NCBI GenBank assembly: GCA_902559985.1
Contig: CACEJY010000002.1
Location: 1 to 64,000 of the forward strand
DNA from: an uncultured SAR116 cluster alpha proteobacterium
GTDB taxonomy: Bacteria > Pseudomonadota > Alphaproteobacteria > Puniceispirillales > Puniceispirillaceae
Direction: 5' to 3'
DNA: 64,000 nucleotides
The notes beneath the pieces were generated by a model. The model saw only the letters and a list, made by a program, of their open reading frames with translations. It was not told where the DNA came from and searched no databases. Positions 44,913-61,529 of the stretch are shown here, one piece after another. Made by a program: the position numbers and the translations under genes. Each line of letters begins with the position of its first letter. Within the stretch, counting starts at the first letter, position 1.

Positions 44913-45665
44913 ATGATTGTTTTTTTGTTGTTGGGTGTATGTGTCCTTATTCAGTCTGTTTACGGGGTTGGGCTTCTTGTTTTTGGCACCCCTATTTTAC
45001 TTCTGAATGGATTAGAATTCTCGGCAGTTCTTGGTGTGTTGTTGCCATCATCTATTATACTCTCTCTTTTTCAAATTATTGAAACCCGTTCCGTAACGGT
45101 TAAAGAAGCTAAAATGGGTCCGATAGTTGTGTTGGGCATTATTTGTGGATTTCTAATTCTTTCACAAACTAAAGCTCCATCCCAAATGTCACTAGTTATG
45201 GCTATCTCCATGTTTTCAGTGGCAGTTCTCAGATCTATCCCCGGGGTGATAGATAGGATAGGTAAGTGGTTATCATATCACAGGCGTGTTTTCCATTTTA
45301 CCAACGCTGTATTTCATGGCTTTTCTAATCTTGGGGGCACACTTTTGACGATCTATAGTACGTCAGTGTACAAAGAGCAGTTGCTAGCCTTGCGATGTAC
45401 TTCAGTTTTCTACTTAATATACGCCATATCACAAATTGCCGTCCTTTTGGTGTTGGGCGAAGGCGAAGGCCTTTTCAAGGGTTTGTTTTTTTTGCCCGTT
45501 ACTGCGCTGATTTACATTTCTATTGGTCGTAAATCGTTCAAGTTGATAGGGCCCGCACTTTTTTATCGCCTGACCACTCTTTTTTTCTGGTTAGCGGCAT
45601 TCGTTTTTTTTGTAAAAGCAACAATGTTTGAAAAACAAATGAGTAAGTTTTTGGAATGGGTGTAA
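44913..45665 (+). CDS. TSUP family (TauE/SafE-like) membrane permease
   Basis: Polytopic; VYGVGLLVFGTPILLLNGLEFSAVLGVLLPSS pattern. Confidence 0.72.
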   Translation: MIVFLLLGVCVLIQSVYGVGLLVFGTPILLLNGLEFSAVLGVLLPSSIILSLFQIIETRSVTVKEAKMGPIVVLGIICGFLILSQTKAPSQMSLVMAISMFSVAVLRSIPGVIDRIGKWLSYHRRVFHFTNAVFHGFSNLGGTLLTIYSTSVYKEQLLALRCTSVFYLIYAISQIAVLLVLGEGEGLFKGLFFLPVTALIYISIGRKSFKLIGPALFYRLTTLFFWLAAFVFFVKATMFEKQMSKFLEWV

Positions 45666-45670
45666 AAAGC

Positions 45671-46132
45671 ATGATATCTAGACGTGATGGCATATGGTTT
45701 TACGGGCTTTCTGGATCAGGTAAAACTTTCGCTTCAGCCGTTGTTTCAGGTGTTGTGAAGAATGGGTTTATTATTGATGGAGATGAGGTGCGAAGTTTAG
45801 TTAGTATGGATCTTGGTTATGAAATGAAAGACCGAGTGGTTCAGTTGAATCGTGTTTTAGGCATTGCACAACTTGCTAAAAACAACTCTCGTTTTCCAAT
45901 TGTTTCAACGGTTACTATGACGGATGATATTCTGAAGCGTTGCTACTCTCTGAATATAGATGTTGTCCAGATTGTCCGGCCTATCGAAACTCTAAGGAAG
46001 GTTCGTTCATTGTATGATGCCGAAGTAAATGTGGTTGGCAAGCATATCAAGTTGGAAGACTTAGAAACTCCAGTTATCCATAACGAGGGTGGGGGGACTT
46101 TTGAGAAACAAGTTGCAAAATATGTTGAGTAA
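45671..46132 (+). CDS. adenylylsulfate kinase-like protein
   Basis: IWFYGLSGSGKTFASAVV P-loop; IIDGDEVRSLVSMDLGYEMKDRVVQLNRVLGIAQLA. Confidence 0.82.
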   Translation: MISRRDGIWFYGLSGSGKTFASAVVSGVVKNGFIIDGDEVRSLVSMDLGYEMKDRVVQLNRVLGIAQLAKNNSRFPIVSTVTMTDDILKRCYSLNIDVVQIVRPIETLRKVRSLYDAEVNVVGKHIKLEDLETPVIHNEGGGTFEKQVAKYVE

Positions 46133-47096
46133 CGAGCTTAGCTTCTCACTTATTAATGCCGCCAACGTCCTTTCAGGGCTTTTAAGCAAGAACTTTGTTG
46201 GATCAGTTGCGGACTTTGAGCGATTTGATAGTTGTTTGCATGGAATTCCAATTCTCATCCCGGCAGATCCAGAACTCTTTGAATTCGAAAATGAAGATGT
46301 TTTCTCTATTGCCCCTGACAGAATTTTAAAAACTGTCTTTGGATTAAATGACCCTTTTTACATTGGCATGCGGCACGCTTTTAACAGATTCGACTTTCTG
46401 GCAAAGTTTTCAGTCCGGCCTAAATATGCTAGCTTCGTTGACGAAGTCGTCCAACAAAATTGTAATGCAACGAATTTTATCAAATCTTTGCAAAAAAAAT
46501 ATGATAATATTGGTGCGTTCCAAACCCGCAATATTCCTCATCTCGGGCATGAAGCAATTATTCAAAGAATGCTAGATTTTTGTGATCATTTAGTCGTTAA
46601 TCCAGTGCTTGGGCCGAAAAAAAATGGTGATGTAACTGTTGAGTGTCTGAGCTCTGTGTTTAAGAGGTTTGCAGAAAAAAAATATAAAAATTCAATTTCC
46701 TTCAAGCCAATTGTTGCAAACATGTTTTATGCCGGACCTCGAGAAGCGGTTCACCACGCTCTTATTCGCCAGAAAATGGGGTTTCAACATTTCACCGTTG
46801 GCCGAGATCACGCGGGTGCGCAGAAGGCGTATTTGCCTGATGCGGCCGTTCGATTAATCAAGAAGATCTCAAATAATCTGAAAATCAATGTGGTGTGCCA
46901 TGACGGTGCCGTATTTTGTGCCGCTTGCGACGATGTTGTACTAGCGGGGGACTGTAATCACGATCATGCTGAGTACCGGGATATTTCGGGAACTGCTTTT
47001 AGAGCAAGTATTGTTAAGAAAGAGATTTTCTTGCTTGCTGATAAAGAAATGCAAACTCTACTATTCAACAGTAAAATAAAGATTTTTGAAACATGA
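46122..47096 (+). CDS. ATP sulfurylase-like protein
   Basis: FQTRNIPHLGHEAIIQRML (QxRN..HxGH), MFYAGPREAVHHALIRQKMGFQHFTVGRDHAG. Confidence 0.88.
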   Translation: MLSNELSFSLINAANVLSGLLSKNFVGSVADFERFDSCLHGIPILIPADPELFEFENEDVFSIAPDRILKTVFGLNDPFYIGMRHAFNRFDFLAKFSVRPKYASFVDEVVQQNCNATNFIKSLQKKYDNIGAFQTRNIPHLGHEAIIQRMLDFCDHLVVNPVLGPKKNGDVTVECLSSVFKRFAEKKYKNSISFKPIVANMFYAGPREAVHHALIRQKMGFQHFTVGRDHAGAQKAYLPDAAVRLIKKISNNLKINVVCHDGAVFCAACDDVVLAGDCNHDHAEYRDISGTAFRASIVKKEIFLLADKEMQTLLFNSKIKIFET

Positions 47097-50339: not shown

Positions 50340-51361
<1,022 letters not shown>

Positions 51362-51406: not shown

Positions 51407-52601
51407 ATGTCGGACTCGAGAACAATATATCATTACGGTGCCCCTTATTTGGAGCAAGATGATATCGACGCAGTGGTTGACGTTCTGAAATCAAAATGGT
51501 TAACGACAGGACCAAAAGTATCTGCATTTGAGGCGAAGCTCAATGAAATTTTAGGCTGTAAATATAGCGTCGCTTGCTCTAATGGTTCGTCCGCGCTTTA
51601 TTTGGCAAGCAAAGCGCTTGATTTTGCTGATGGAGACATCGTTATCGTACCATCAATTACATTCCTCGCCACGGCAAATGCGCCACATATGGCAGGTGCA
51701 AAAGTGGTTTTTGCCGACGTTTGTCCCAAGAAAGGGATTATCACACCAGAGACTTTTGCTGGAGCAATAGATAGAGCTGAAGGGACTGTTCGTGCGGTGT
51801 TTCCGGTCCATCTCAACGGAGTTCCTTGTGCAATGGATTCTATTGCTGACGTCGCTAATCAACACAACATCACTATTGTTGAGGACGCTTGTCATGCAAT
51901 TGGCGGCGGTTATTCTATTGATGGATCAATGGTTGGCAGTTGTGCACATTCATCGATGAGCACCTTTTCTTTTCATCCGGTGAAAAACCTTGCCACAGGT
52001 GAGGGGGGGGGCTGTCACAACAAATGACGAGCTTTTGTCTGAACGGTTGCGGCTCCTGCGTAATCATGGAATGCAGAGAGGCTTGCCCGAAAAAAACAGT
52101 GTTGAGGGTGCTCCAGTTGGGTTCGAAAAACTTTTCTATCATATTGATGAGCCGAGTCTTAATTTTCGTCTGAGTGATATAAGCTGCGCACTAGGTATAA
52201 GTCAGCTTCAAAAATTAAATAGGTTTCTTGACAAACGAGAATTACTCAAAAAACGTTATGAGAGTATCCTAGACACCTATAACCCTTACATAATACCTGT
52301 GAAGTGCAGAGGTCAAGTTTCACCAGCATGGCACTTGTCGCCCGTACAAATCGATTATGTACACTTTGGTACTACTCGGGATAGGGTTATGTCTACTCTT
52401 GCAGAATTGGGCATTTACACGCAGGTGCATTACTATCCTGTTCATAAGCAGCCGTATTACAGGCGTGAATGTAGCAAGACTGAATTGCCGGGCGCTCAGG
52501 CATATTATGCGAAAACCCTGTCGTTGCCACTGCATTACGCGCTGGACATTACGGATGTGGATTACATTTGTGAAAAATTACTTGGGTGCCTAATGAGATG
52601 A
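51407..52601 (+). pseudogene. pseC: UDP-4-amino-4,6-dideoxy-AltNAc aminotransferase, frameshifted at poly-G tract (possibly phase-OFF)
   Basis: YHYGAPYLEQDDIDAVVDVLKSKWLTTGPKV...FSFHPVKNLATGEGG | AVTTNDELLSERLRLLRNHG; frame breaks at G9. Confidence 0.92.
52003..52011 (+). repeat. poly-G tract, G9, inside pseC
   Basis: gtgaGGGGGGGGGctg; eight Gs would restore GEGGAVTTND. Confidence 0.95.
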
Positions 52602-53389
52602 CAAAAACCGTCGCAATCGTTCAGGCTCGCATGGGTTCTTCCCGCCTTCCAAAAAAAATCCTAAAACGTTTGGGGAGTAAGACAATCCTCCAAACAGTTC
52701 TTGAGCGTTTGCAACTTGCAACAAGAGTAGATCAGGTTTGTTGTGCAACCAGTGATTTAGCCGAGGATGACGAAGTCGTAGATGAAGCAAAAAGGCATGG
52801 CTTTTATGTGTTTCGAGGAGAGCATCAAGATGTCCTTAATCGATATGCCACTGCTGCAAAAGAACTCCAGGCACACATCGTTGTGCGTGTAACGTCAGAC
52901 TGTCCAAGTGTTGACCCAAAAATAGTTGATGACCTGCTGGATTTGAGAGAGCGCATGAATGCTGACTATGCTTCGAACAACATGCCACGTTCATGGCCTA
53001 TAGGTATGGATGTTGAAGTTTTTACAAATGCGGCTCTTCAGGAAGCGAACAGTTGCGCCATCAAGGCAGATCATCGCGAACATGTGTCTCCTTGGATGCG
53101 CGTTGCAAAAACCCTTCGACGAACAAATTTAAGTGCAAGGCAAGTTGTATTAAATAATATCAGGCTTACAATTGATTACCTTGATGATTATAAATTTTTC
53201 GAACATCTGATCGCATGCGCCCCTGGAAAAGAACTACCACTATCCTTTGAAGATACGATGAGTATCATTCAATCAAACTCCGTTTTGATGAATTATTTTT
53301 CTTCCACGAAAATAGTAGAAGCAAAATATGATTTTGGGGTTTTGGAAGACGTGAAAATCCATCCTGAAATTGTAAATGATAACCCTTAA
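52598..53389 (+). CDS. SpsF/PseF-like cytidylyltransferase family protein
   Basis: VAIVQARMGSSRLPKKILKRLGSKTILQTVLERL...VVRVTSDCPSVDP; ATGA-type overlap with pseC. Confidence 0.87.
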   Translation: MTKTVAIVQARMGSSRLPKKILKRLGSKTILQTVLERLQLATRVDQVCCATSDLAEDDEVVDEAKRHGFYVFRGEHQDVLNRYATAAKELQAHIVVRVTSDCPSVDPKIVDDLLDLRERMNADYASNNMPRSWPIGMDVEVFTNAALQEANSCAIKADHREHVSPWMRVAKTLRRTNLSARQVVLNNIRLTIDYLDDYKFFEHLIACAPGKELPLSFEDTMSIIQSNSVLMNYFSSTKIVEAKYDFGVLEDVKIHPEIVNDNP

Positions 53390-53416: not shown

Positions 53417-54994
53417 ATGACACCCACCCCTAATATAATTCTCTTGATAATCGATACGTTACGCTTTGATAAACTTGGTAGTTCTGGTTACCAACCTGCT
53501 GTCACACCGAACATAGATAGTCTCGTGAATGGAGGCTGCTCGTTTGTCAACAACCATTCAAATGGGTGTGTGACCAGTGTCGCATTTCCATCTATTTTCA
53601 CATCTACTATGCCTTTTGACTATGGTGGTTATGATGATGGTATTATTGACCGCCCAAAATCTTTCCCTGAAGTTTTGCAAACGGCTGGCTATGAAAATTA
53701 TGGACTTATGACTGGACACCCATGCTCTTCCCATTTTGGGTACGACAGAGGCTTTGACCGTTTCTATGACTTAATTGATTTCTATCAATGGTTTCGTGCC
53801 GCATATGTGACTTATCTTGCGGAGCTGATTGAGCAGTATGTTGATAATGATAAGCAGTCAACTAAGATTTTTGAGACGATTGTAGAAAAATATAGAAGAG
53901 TTTTGCTTGATACATTGAAATATATTGACAAGTTGCAAGACCTTCCCGTTCGTTTGCCTAAACCTGAAAAGCGAAACCGTATTAGAACAAAGGTCAACGC
54001 AGAGCTTAGATTGATCGAAAAAACACCGAGTCTAGTGATTGATAAAATGATTTTGCTTGCCGAGGACTATCAAAATTACCTAGGTGTACCAGAGGTCTCA
54101 AAAACGCAATTGATGTATCGAAAATGGAAGAAACGCATTGCCTTGAAACTTCATAAGCGTGTCTTTATTTTATCCGAGCGTCGGGCAGTTGGGGCGAGTT
54201 TTGTTAATGCTCTTTTCACTTCTTTGATGGCAAATAGAAAATCTAAGCCATGCTTTGTAGCTCTTCATTACTTTGATTTGCATGAAGCTAAATTACAAAT
54301 CTCAAAAATTCTTTGTTCATTAAACTTAATTGAAATTTTCAAATTTCTGACTGCGGCCTTCGCTTGTTGGAAGGGTCGTAAGGTAGGGCAGGGTGGACTG
54401 TTATACGATATCGCGCTCAGGCGAATTGACGATGAGGTAGGTAAGTTTCTGAAGATACTAAAAGATAGTGGGATGGCTGAAAACACTGTCATTGTATTGA
54501 CTGGAGATCACGGCACGGAAGCTGGATTCCCAATTCGAAACTTTGGTTCTAATCTGTCTCGTCTTTTTTATAAAGAACACTTGCATGTCCCACTCACCTT
54601 TTATGGCAAAGGCATTGAGCCCACGAAGGATTTGAGGTTGGTCTCACATATAGATCTTGCACCCACAATTTTGGGATTAGCCGATTGTCCCGTCCCAGAG
54701 AGCTTTTGTGGTGTTGACCTCATTAAGAATCAACGGCATGTCAACATGGAAGTATGGAGTGAAAATGCTGGGAAGGGTAGGTGCCTCCTGGACAGCAAGC
54801 GTTTGTTTTTTGGCCGTCGGACAAAAAAGTGGAATGTGATAGGCTACTCTGATAAGTTTGAACCTTCATTAACCGAGTTTTATGATCTTAAGCACGACCC
54901 ATACGAACAGAATAACCTTATTGAGAATGTGCCAGAAGATGTTTATGACGAGAACATAAAAGCATTCAAAAACAGACTTTTAAAGCTACGGTAG
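53417..54994 (+). CDS. alkaline phosphatase/sulfatase superfamily protein lacking the CxPxR formylglycine motif
   Basis: NIILLIIDTLRFDKLGSSGYQPAVTPNIDSL, TGDHGTEAG metal sites; nucleophile region reads NGCVTSVAFPSIFTS. Confidence 0.87.
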   Translation: MTPTPNIILLIIDTLRFDKLGSSGYQPAVTPNIDSLVNGGCSFVNNHSNGCVTSVAFPSIFTSTMPFDYGGYDDGIIDRPKSFPEVLQTAGYENYGLMTGHPCSSHFGYDRGFDRFYDLIDFYQWFRAAYVTYLAELIEQYVDNDKQSTKIFETIVEKYRRVLLDTLKYIDKLQDLPVRLPKPEKRNRIRTKVNAELRLIEKTPSLVIDKMILLAEDYQNYLGVPEVSKTQLMYRKWKKRIALKLHKRVFILSERRAVGASFVNALFTSLMANRKSKPCFVALHYFDLHEAKLQISKILCSLNLIEIFKFLTAAFACWKGRKVGQGGLLYDIALRRIDDEVGKFLKILKDSGMAENTVIVLTGDHGTEAGFPIRNFGSNLSRLFYKEHLHVPLTFYGKGIEPTKDLRLVSHIDLAPTILGLADCPVPESFCGVDLIKNQRHVNMEVWSENAGKGRCLLDSKRLFFGRRTKKWNVIGYSDKFEPSLTEFYDLKHDPYEQNNLIENVPEDVYDENIKAFKNRLLKLR

Positions 54995-57288: not shown

Positions 57289-59010
57289 ATGCGTGTATTA
57301 TTCCGAGTTGATGCATCACGCAGCATAGGCTTCGGTCATTTGTCTCGCTGCCTAGTTCTTGCTAATGCACTGAGAAAAAGTGGTGATACCTGCGTATTCG
57401 CATGTCAATCTCTCAGTGGCGACGGCATCTCCAAAATTGAAAATGAGGGTTTTGACATAGTGAAATTGTCATCAATGTTGCAATCTGGTAATCATGATTT
57501 TGTCTTTGGTGATAGGCTCTCTTGGCCTTCTGGTGTTTTAGAAAAAGACCGTGTGGCAGTAGCAAAAATTCTCAAGAAAAGGCAATTTGACTGGGTTGTG
57601 ATCGACCATTACGGAATAGATGTAGAATGGCAAAAAATGATTCCTCCGGGTGTGAAAGTAATGGTTTTAGAGGATGCCCCTTTACGAAAACACGTCTGCC
57701 AAATTCTACTTGATCAAAGTCATGGCCGATCTAGGCAAGCTTACGCGGATTTAGTTTCTGATCAGACAAAATGTCTAATAGGTACACAATATGCGTTAAT
57801 CCGAGATGAATTTTTTGTATCCAGAGCGCGCCGTGGTAATATAGTAGCACCAAATAAAATCAGTCGCCTTTTTGTCAATTTTGGTGCTGCGGATCAGTTT
57901 CAAGTCACACCGGGGGTTGTAGCCGCATTGCTTGATAATGAGCACCTGAAAAACACTCAACTAGTCGTAGTTTCAGGAAAGCACTCCAATAGCTTGCCGG
58001 CACTTCAAGAAATGCAGATGAGGTACGGGAAACGCATTCATTTAGTTGTTGAACCTCGAAAAATGGCAGTTTTAATGTGTGGGTGCGATGCGGCGGTAGG
58101 TGCTGGTGGTGTATCTGCAGTCGAAAGATGTGTAATTGGACTACCTTCAATTATTATTCCTCTTGCAGATAATCAACGGCAGATGGCTGAGGGTCTCTGT
58201 GCGCAGGGAGCGGCCATTCTTTGTGAATTGGACTTTCAGAGAGATGTTGGGCCGCAGATTGATCCAGCTATAAATGAGCTTTGCCAAATAGGGAAAATTG
58301 CAAAGTGCCAAAAACAAGCCCTTGAGGTTTGTGATGGTCTTGGTGTGCAAAGAGTCATCAATTTACTTCAGACGAAAAAAATCACAATCTTAATGGAAGT
58401 AAATTCTTGGCTTGAGAGACATGTAAACTCTTTAAGTCGGGAGTTACAAGAGCAAGGGTATATTGTAAATGTGGTAACCGATGAGGCTCAAATTTCAAGC
58501 GGTTGGCTTTGTTTTATTCTGGGTTTCCCGAAAATTGTGAGCAGAAAAACACTGAATTTAAACATCCATAACCTAGTAGTGCACGAGAGTGATCTGCCGA
58601 ATGGCCGGGGCTTTGCGCCAATTGCGTGGCAAATTTTGGAGGGCAGGAGTTCTATTACAATGTGTCTAATAGAAGCCATAAATGCTGTTGATGCAGGGGA
58701 TATCTGGTTACGACACAAGTTAAGGATTGAGGAGCATGATCTCCTTATTGATTGGCGGGAGCGTCAGGGTCTTGAAACTGTAAAGATGTGTCTCAAATTC
58801 GTCGAGAGGTTTTGGGCTCTCTCGAGTAGCCCCCAAAAAGGACAACCTTCTTTTTATCGGCGAAGATCATCACAAGATAGCGAACTTGACACCAGCCGTT
58901 CTCTACACGACCAATTCAATCTTCTCAGAGTTGTTGACAATCATAGATACCCCGCGTTCTTTCATTATAGGGGTAAGAAGTACATATTAGAAATAGAGAA
59001 AGACGGCTAA
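57289..59010 (+). CDS. pseG: fusion: PseG-like UDP-sugar hydrolase (N) plus formyltransferase domain (C)
   Basis: N: LFRVDASRSIGFGHLSRCLVLANALRKSGDTCVFAC...AAVGAGGVSAVERCVIGLPSIIIPLADNQ; C: NLVVHESDLPNGRGFAPIAWQILEGRSSITMCLIEAINAVDAGDIW. Confidence 0.9.
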   Translation: MRVLFRVDASRSIGFGHLSRCLVLANALRKSGDTCVFACQSLSGDGISKIENEGFDIVKLSSMLQSGNHDFVFGDRLSWPSGVLEKDRVAVAKILKKRQFDWVVIDHYGIDVEWQKMIPPGVKVMVLEDAPLRKHVCQILLDQSHGRSRQAYADLVSDQTKCLIGTQYALIRDEFFVSRARRGNIVAPNKISRLFVNFGAADQFQVTPGVVAALLDNEHLKNTQLVVVSGKHSNSLPALQEMQMRYGKRIHLVVEPRKMAVLMCGCDAAVGAGGVSAVERCVIGLPSIIIPLADNQRQMAEGLCAQGAAILCELDFQRDVGPQIDPAINELCQIGKIAKCQKQALEVCDGLGVQRVINLLQTKKITILMEVNSWLERHVNSLSRELQEQGYIVNVVTDEAQISSGWLCFILGFPKIVSRKTLNLNIHNLVVHESDLPNGRGFAPIAWQILEGRSSITMCLIEAINAVDAGDIWLRHKLRIEEHDLLIDWRERQGLETVKMCLKFVERFWALSSSPQKGQPSFYRRRSSQDSELDTSRSLHDQFNLLRVVDNHRYPAFFHYRGKKYILEIEKDG

Positions 59011-60479: not shown

Positions 60480-61529
60480 ATGATTATAAATGGCAGAAAA
60501 GTCGGACCTGACAATCCACCGTATATCGTCGCAGAAATGTCAGCGAACCACAATGGTAGCATTGAAAATGCATTTAGAATTATTGATAAGGCGAAAGCAG
60601 CGGGTGCTCATGCAATAAAGATTCAAACCTATCGACCGGACACAATCACTATCGATTGCAAACATGAAGATTTTATGATCTCAGAGGGTCTTTGGAAAGG
60701 CCGTAGTCTCTATGATCTTTACGATTGGGCGCATACCCCTTGGGATTGGCATGAGCCGCTCTTCCAATATGCGAAGGAAGCGGATATTACCATATTCAGC
60801 ACACCTTTTGATGCGTCTGCAGTTGATCTTCTTGAGGAACTATCGGCACCAGCATACAAAATAGCATCATTTGAGCTCACAGATTTGAATTTAATTGAGT
60901 GCGTTGCTAACACCAAAAAACCAATGATTATGTCAACTGGAATGGCGAATCTTGCAGAAATTTCTGATGCCGTTGAGATTGCCCAAAAGAGCGGCTGCTC
61001 TCAGTTAGCTCTCTTGCATTGTGTAAGTTCATACCCTGCACCTGTAAAGGATTGTAACTTGCGGGTTATTGCCGATTTGGCAGAAAAATTTGGTGTCGTA
61101 GTCGGTCTTTCAGACCATAGTGTGGAAAATGCGGTCGCCATTAGTAGTGTGGCAATGGGAGCGTCAATAATCGAAAAGCACTTCACACTTGACAGACACG
61201 GTGGTGGTCCTGATGACAGTTTTTCTCTTGAACCGATTGATTTACAGATGCTTGTAGAGTCCAGCGCCACCGCATGGGAAGCTTTGGGTGGGGTGTCTTA
61301 CAATCAACAGGAGTCTGAGAAACCAAATTTAAAGTTTCGTAGGTCACTCTATTTTGTTGAGAATTTGAAGGCAGGTGAGGTGATCAGCTCAGCACATGTC
61401 CGGAGTATTCGTCCAGGCTTCGGGCTTGATCCAAAAAACCTTGATAACATTATCGGCTGTGTTGCTGCCCACGATATTGAAGTCGGTACTGCAGTGTCGT
61501 GGGAACATATCATAAAGACAGATTGTTAA
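60480..61529 (+). CDS. pseI: pseudaminic acid synthase (NeuB family, C-terminal SAF domain)
   Basis: PYIVAEMSANHNGSIENAFRIIDKAKAAGAHAIKIQTYRPDTITID...IIEKHFTLDRHGGGPDDSFSLEP...EVGTAVSWEHI. Confidence 0.95.
   Translation: MIINGRKVGPDNPPYIVAEMSANHNGSIENAFRIIDKAKAAGAHAIKIQTYRPDTITIDCKHEDFMISEGLWKGRSLYDLYDWAHTPWDWHEPLFQYAKEADITIFSTPFDASAVDLLEELSAPAYKIASFELTDLNLIECVANTKKPMIMSTGMANLAEISDAVEIAQKSGCSQLALLHCVSSYPAPVKDCNLRVIADLAEKFGVVVGLSDHSVENAVAISSVAMGASIIEKHFTLDRHGGGPDDSFSLEPIDLQMLVESSATAWEALGGVSYNQQESEKPNLKFRRSLYFVENLKAGEVISSAHVRSIRPGFGLDPKNLDNIIGCVAAHDIEVGTAVSWEHIIKTDC

Follow-up and report, generated by a model that had tools for sequence, protein, structure and literature searches.

Poly-G frameshifts in pseB and pseC of a partial SAR116-cluster genome are probably homopolymer-length errors of assembly

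Introduction

In Campylobacter, runs of eight or more Gs switch genes at the pseudaminic-acid loci (PMC3068675; PMC6321876). Such runs are abundant there, are concentrated in surface-structure loci and have been seen to vary. Long homopolymers are also a known source of artefact: human TCGA samples that had undergone multiple displacement amplification (MDA) carried an excess of homopolymer insertions, in which G and C were inserted twice as often and which mostly broke the reading frame (PMC5467262).

Here we analyzed a stretch of 64,000 nucleotides (hereafter the window) from the genome of an uncultured SAR116-cluster alphaproteobacterium, in which two adjacent genes of pseudaminic-acid synthesis, pseB and pseC, are each interrupted at a run of Gs. 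The locus resembles the Campylobacter system in having runs of 8–10 Gs inside genes of a pseudaminic-acid locus; in contrast to it, parE, infB, a PBP1A-type gene and fhs are broken alike in this genome, and no conserved site was seen among distant homologues. It resembles the MDA artefacts in that the insertions are enriched in G/C homopolymers and break frames. Those artefacts, however, were variant calls from human exome reads of samples that were amplified, whereas ours are found in a bacterial draft consensus for which we infer amplification.

Results

G tracts split pseB and pseC within a pseudaminic-acid cluster

The features of the cluster that lie in the window, all on the forward strand, are as follows.

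50355–51361, forward: pseB (UDP-GlcNAc 4,6-dehydratase), in two frames in the assembly, both parts matching TIGR03589
51029–51038, forward: run of ten Gs at the pseB break
51407–52601, forward: pseC (DegT-family aminotransferase), in two frames in the assembly, both parts matching TIGR03588
52003–52011, forward: run of nine Gs at the pseC break, in the GEGG motif directly after the FHPVKN lysine motif
52586–53389, forward: cytidylyltransferase-like gene (KdsB/PseF-type), intact
57289–59010, forward: PseG fused to a formyltransferase-like part, intact (TIGR03590 above cut-off)
60480–61529, forward: PseI pseudaminic acid synthase, intact (TIGR03586 above cut-off)

The first-pass annotation had described a G9 tract breaking pseC, and we found it at exactly that position, with split halves that match the NCBIfam equivalog model for PseC (TIGR03588). 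The 5' part (ORF 51407–52027; 206 aa) covers profile positions 3–194 and the 3' part (ORF 51990–52601; 203 aa) positions 192–378. Likewise, the two parts of pseB (ORFs 50355–51068 and 50972–51361) cover positions 2–224 and 216–323 of the PseB equivalog model, TIGR03589. Since each pair of ORFs covers consecutive parts of one profile, each represents a single gene split at its tract. As the annotation had also claimed, both frames close at a tract length of 8 (or 8 ± 3), leaving pseB offset by +2 and pseC by +1. Read across the break, PseB scored 476.2 bits against a cut-off of 407.75. PseC, for which the residues at the tract were masked, reached 405.6 bits (cut-off 423.5), TIGR03588 being its best model by a wide margin; these scores indicate that neither gene has decayed further.

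These two tracts are the only runs of at least seven Gs in the window, which also holds one C7 (7088–7094). Two runs of at least nine Gs inside 1 kb are mildly unusual (p ~0.04, nine such runs being placed randomly over 1.7 Mb). The annotation had treated them as a pair, but a third tract in the same cluster also breaks an ORF. This G10 (C2:64525–64534; L032:5525–5534) lies 525 bases past the end of the window and interrupts ORF L032:5030–6044, which carries at its N-terminus a GFGHxxRC motif resembling the one in PseG-type proteins and gave no match on family matching. Three of the nine longest G runs of the genome thus fall inside 13.5 kb at the glycan cluster (p ~0.016 by simulation, a pattern noticed post hoc); with all 17 runs of G8 or more, the same clustering gave p = 0.11.

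The setting of pseB and pseC is a nonulosonic-acid (pseudaminic-acid) cluster, which continues past the end of the window with a second NeuB/PseI-type synthase and an N-acetyl sugar amidotransferase. The PseG gene is a single ORF of 573 aa that combines the hydrolase with a formyltransferase-like C-terminal part. APS-kinase-like and ATP-sulfurylase genes lie upstream of pseBC (45656–47096) and a sulfatase-family gene lies downstream (53417–54994), which suggests sulfate chemistry in the cluster.

Long G runs break genes of any function

We then considered the whole assembly (1.7 Mb in 93 contigs; 72.7% complete; contamination 0.17). It contains 26 G7, 8 G8, 4 G9 and 5 G10 runs, hence 17 of G8 or more, and each site was called from overlapping open frames, family matches and codon-usage scores. 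Twelve of the 17 break a gene, four are in frame and one was not callable (12/16 interpretable runs broken).

Broken at a G run: pseB; pseC; the third cluster gene; a fused TRAP permease; a MATE transporter; a GlnQ-type ABC ATPase; formate-tetrahydrofolate ligase (fhs); a PBP1A-family gene; parE (topoisomerase IV); infB (IF-2); an RraA-like gene; an ELM1-like gene
In frame: four G8 sites (L037, L038, L041 and L045)

The third cluster tract, fhs and the ELM1-like gene were beyond the codon-usage caller and were judged by overlapping ORFs and family matches, and the one site that was not callable is an ABC1-kinase site (L044, G9) close to an ORF start. The pse tracts are not special within the genome, being two among 17 runs of this length, most of which break genes. 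In fhs (L036, G000:C5:57785–57794), the G10 break is followed after ~130 bases by a second frame change, where only five Gs stand in a row.

Breakage depended sharply on run length, with an onset at G8: none of the callable coding G7 runs was broken (0/19; all 19 in frame), compared with 4/8 at G8 and 8/8 of the callable G9–G10 runs. Once a run was long enough, breaks struck genes of any function. A further G7 that had been a candidate break (L207) proved to be an overlap between two adjacent genes. Runs of A9 in the same genome were in frame at all callable sites (6/6), and A7–A10 and T7–T9 runs, over the 166 kb examined, lay mostly within long open frames. Synonymous codon shuffling predicted G10 to be far rarer than G8, and five G10 runs were observed. 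The onset at G8 also matches real poly-G phase variation in Campylobacter (PMC6321876), which counts against an artefact.

Essential single-copy genes are among those split

ParE is represented in this genome by two halves only (each a 100% match), the other match being a gyrase-type paralogue at 43% identity. The protein is full-length in 12 congeners; in three others it matches from residue 54 (G003), meets a stop near the C-terminus (G014) or is split elsewhere (G010). The congeners use mixed codons at the site of the parE tract and lack a long G run there. IF-2, split in this genome, gave a match in eight congeners and is whole in every one of them. It is implausible that all such essential genes are off in one living cell. 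Short of invoking slippage rescue, the consensus probably has an incorrect length at these sites.

In related genomes, breaks track assembly completeness

Runs of G9 and G10 were gathered from 36 relatives. In partial relatives (59–88% complete, this genome excluded), nine coding runs were broken and three intact, compared with none broken and 16 intact in near-complete relatives (93% or more; 10 of these 16 runs belong to one genome, G043). The difference held by run (Fisher p = 3e-5) and by genome, with any break seen in 6/8 partial and 0/5 near-complete genomes (Fisher p = 0.02). Two frame calls had been revised from translations: L116 in G004 is intact, and L163 in G049 has no upstream coding frame. 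Within one order, then, breakage follows completeness, which we use as a proxy for preparation, and not phylogeny. An in-frame long run is nevertheless also present in three of the partial genomes (G003, G041 and G038), and this counts against an artefact.

G043, a single-contig genome of the same order, has unusually many long runs (16 G9 and 8 G10). Ten of its runs of nine or more were callable and all are in frame, including L127, which had earlier been called broken under a smaller codon model.

The breaks also had a consistent direction, that of G gain. Over all genomes, 19/21 were +1 (p = 2e-4), and the two exceptions, at the G10 runs of pseB and fhs, are consistent with two added Gs. 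Such a steady gain of G is expected from slippage during amplification.

Conservation of the pseC tract

No close pseC orthologue was present among 60 relatives (best identity 39%), a scan of named genomes returned distant homologues only (26–30% identity), and a search of viral contigs for the tract gave no match. Distant DegT-family homologues encode the GEGG site with mixed glycine codons and lack a long G run, and there is thus no sign of a maintained tract.

Discussion

We propose that the pseC G9 and the pseB G10 are homopolymer-length errors of the assembly and that both genes are intact in the organism, a reading to which we give a probability of about 0.87. It draws on the runs and frame breaks themselves, on the occurrence of such breaks in essential single-copy genes too, on their onset at G8, on the preponderance of +1 shifts and on the way breakage varies with completeness among related genomes. 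Runs that are in frame in the cell would have gained extra Gs during DNA amplification or sequencing of this partial genome. The template was most likely whole-genome-amplified DNA of a single cell, copied by phi29 polymerase (MDA), as an incomplete genome with so little contamination (0.17) has the look of a single-cell amplified genome. The true tracts would then be in frame, and in the living cell pseB and pseC would be ordinary intact genes of the pseudaminic-acid cluster. The first-pass annotation had offered homopolymer error as one option, and it gains strong support from a defect that affects nearly all long G runs, single-copy essential genes included, and that tracks completeness.

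Another option raised there was a two-switch control of one glycan. In a fuller form, replication slippage at all three cluster runs, those of pseB and pseC included, would turn glycan synthesis on and off, and whatever cell or population was sequenced would have been off at each of them. The 9–10 G runs inside pseudaminic-acid cluster genes are long enough to slip and lie within the reading frame, three of the nine longest in the genome fall so close together, and the Campylobacter flagellin glycosylation loci are a direct precedent (PMC3068675; PMC6321876). Yet the tracts are not concentrated in surface or contingency genes, since parE, infB, the PBP1A-type gene and fhs suffer the same breaks; no conserved tract was seen at the pseC site in distant homologues; and breakage in relatives tracks how complete the assembly is. 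The mutS gene is intact in this genome, so that there is no visible repair defect to make the runs unstable in vivo, and we rejected loss of mismatch repair as a cause. Because breakage extends beyond surface genes and distant homologues encode GEGG without a long G run, two-switch control is not supported, and we regard phase variation at these loci as unlikely. Genuine, recent pseudogenization of pseB and pseC in this strain seems more improbable still. Each gene does have one frame break in the assembly, but their frames are otherwise open with full-length matches, the breaks fall at the longest G runs only, as they do in essential genes, and the pathway genes further downstream are intact.

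The third option in the annotation was transcriptional slippage. Out-of-frame essential genes would be accounted for if the frameshifts were real but partly compensated when RNA polymerase or the ribosome slips on the G runs, so that full-length products of pseB, pseC, parE, infB and other genes were made; rescue of homopolymer frameshifts in this way has been described for other bacteria. However, near-complete relatives hold their G9–G10 runs in frame, which indicates that frame breaks are not generally tolerated in this lineage, and rescue requires that many independent frameshifts, nearly all +1, were fixed together. Slippage is not needed to explain the data, and we consider this account very improbable. 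There is similarly little chance that the lineage truly carries over-long G runs genome-wide, parE and infB included, with full-length proteins made through slippage and the nonulosonic-acid cluster under three slippage-prone tracts.

Preferring homopolymer-length error, we conclude that the poly-G frameshifts in pseB and pseC are almost certainly not a biological switch. The case is a warning that runs of G8 or longer in partial, probably single-cell, genomes yield false phase-variation calls and false pseudogenes. Before a contingency locus is called, it costs little to see whether essential single-copy genes of that assembly are also broken at their long G runs, taking G7 and A9 as internal controls.
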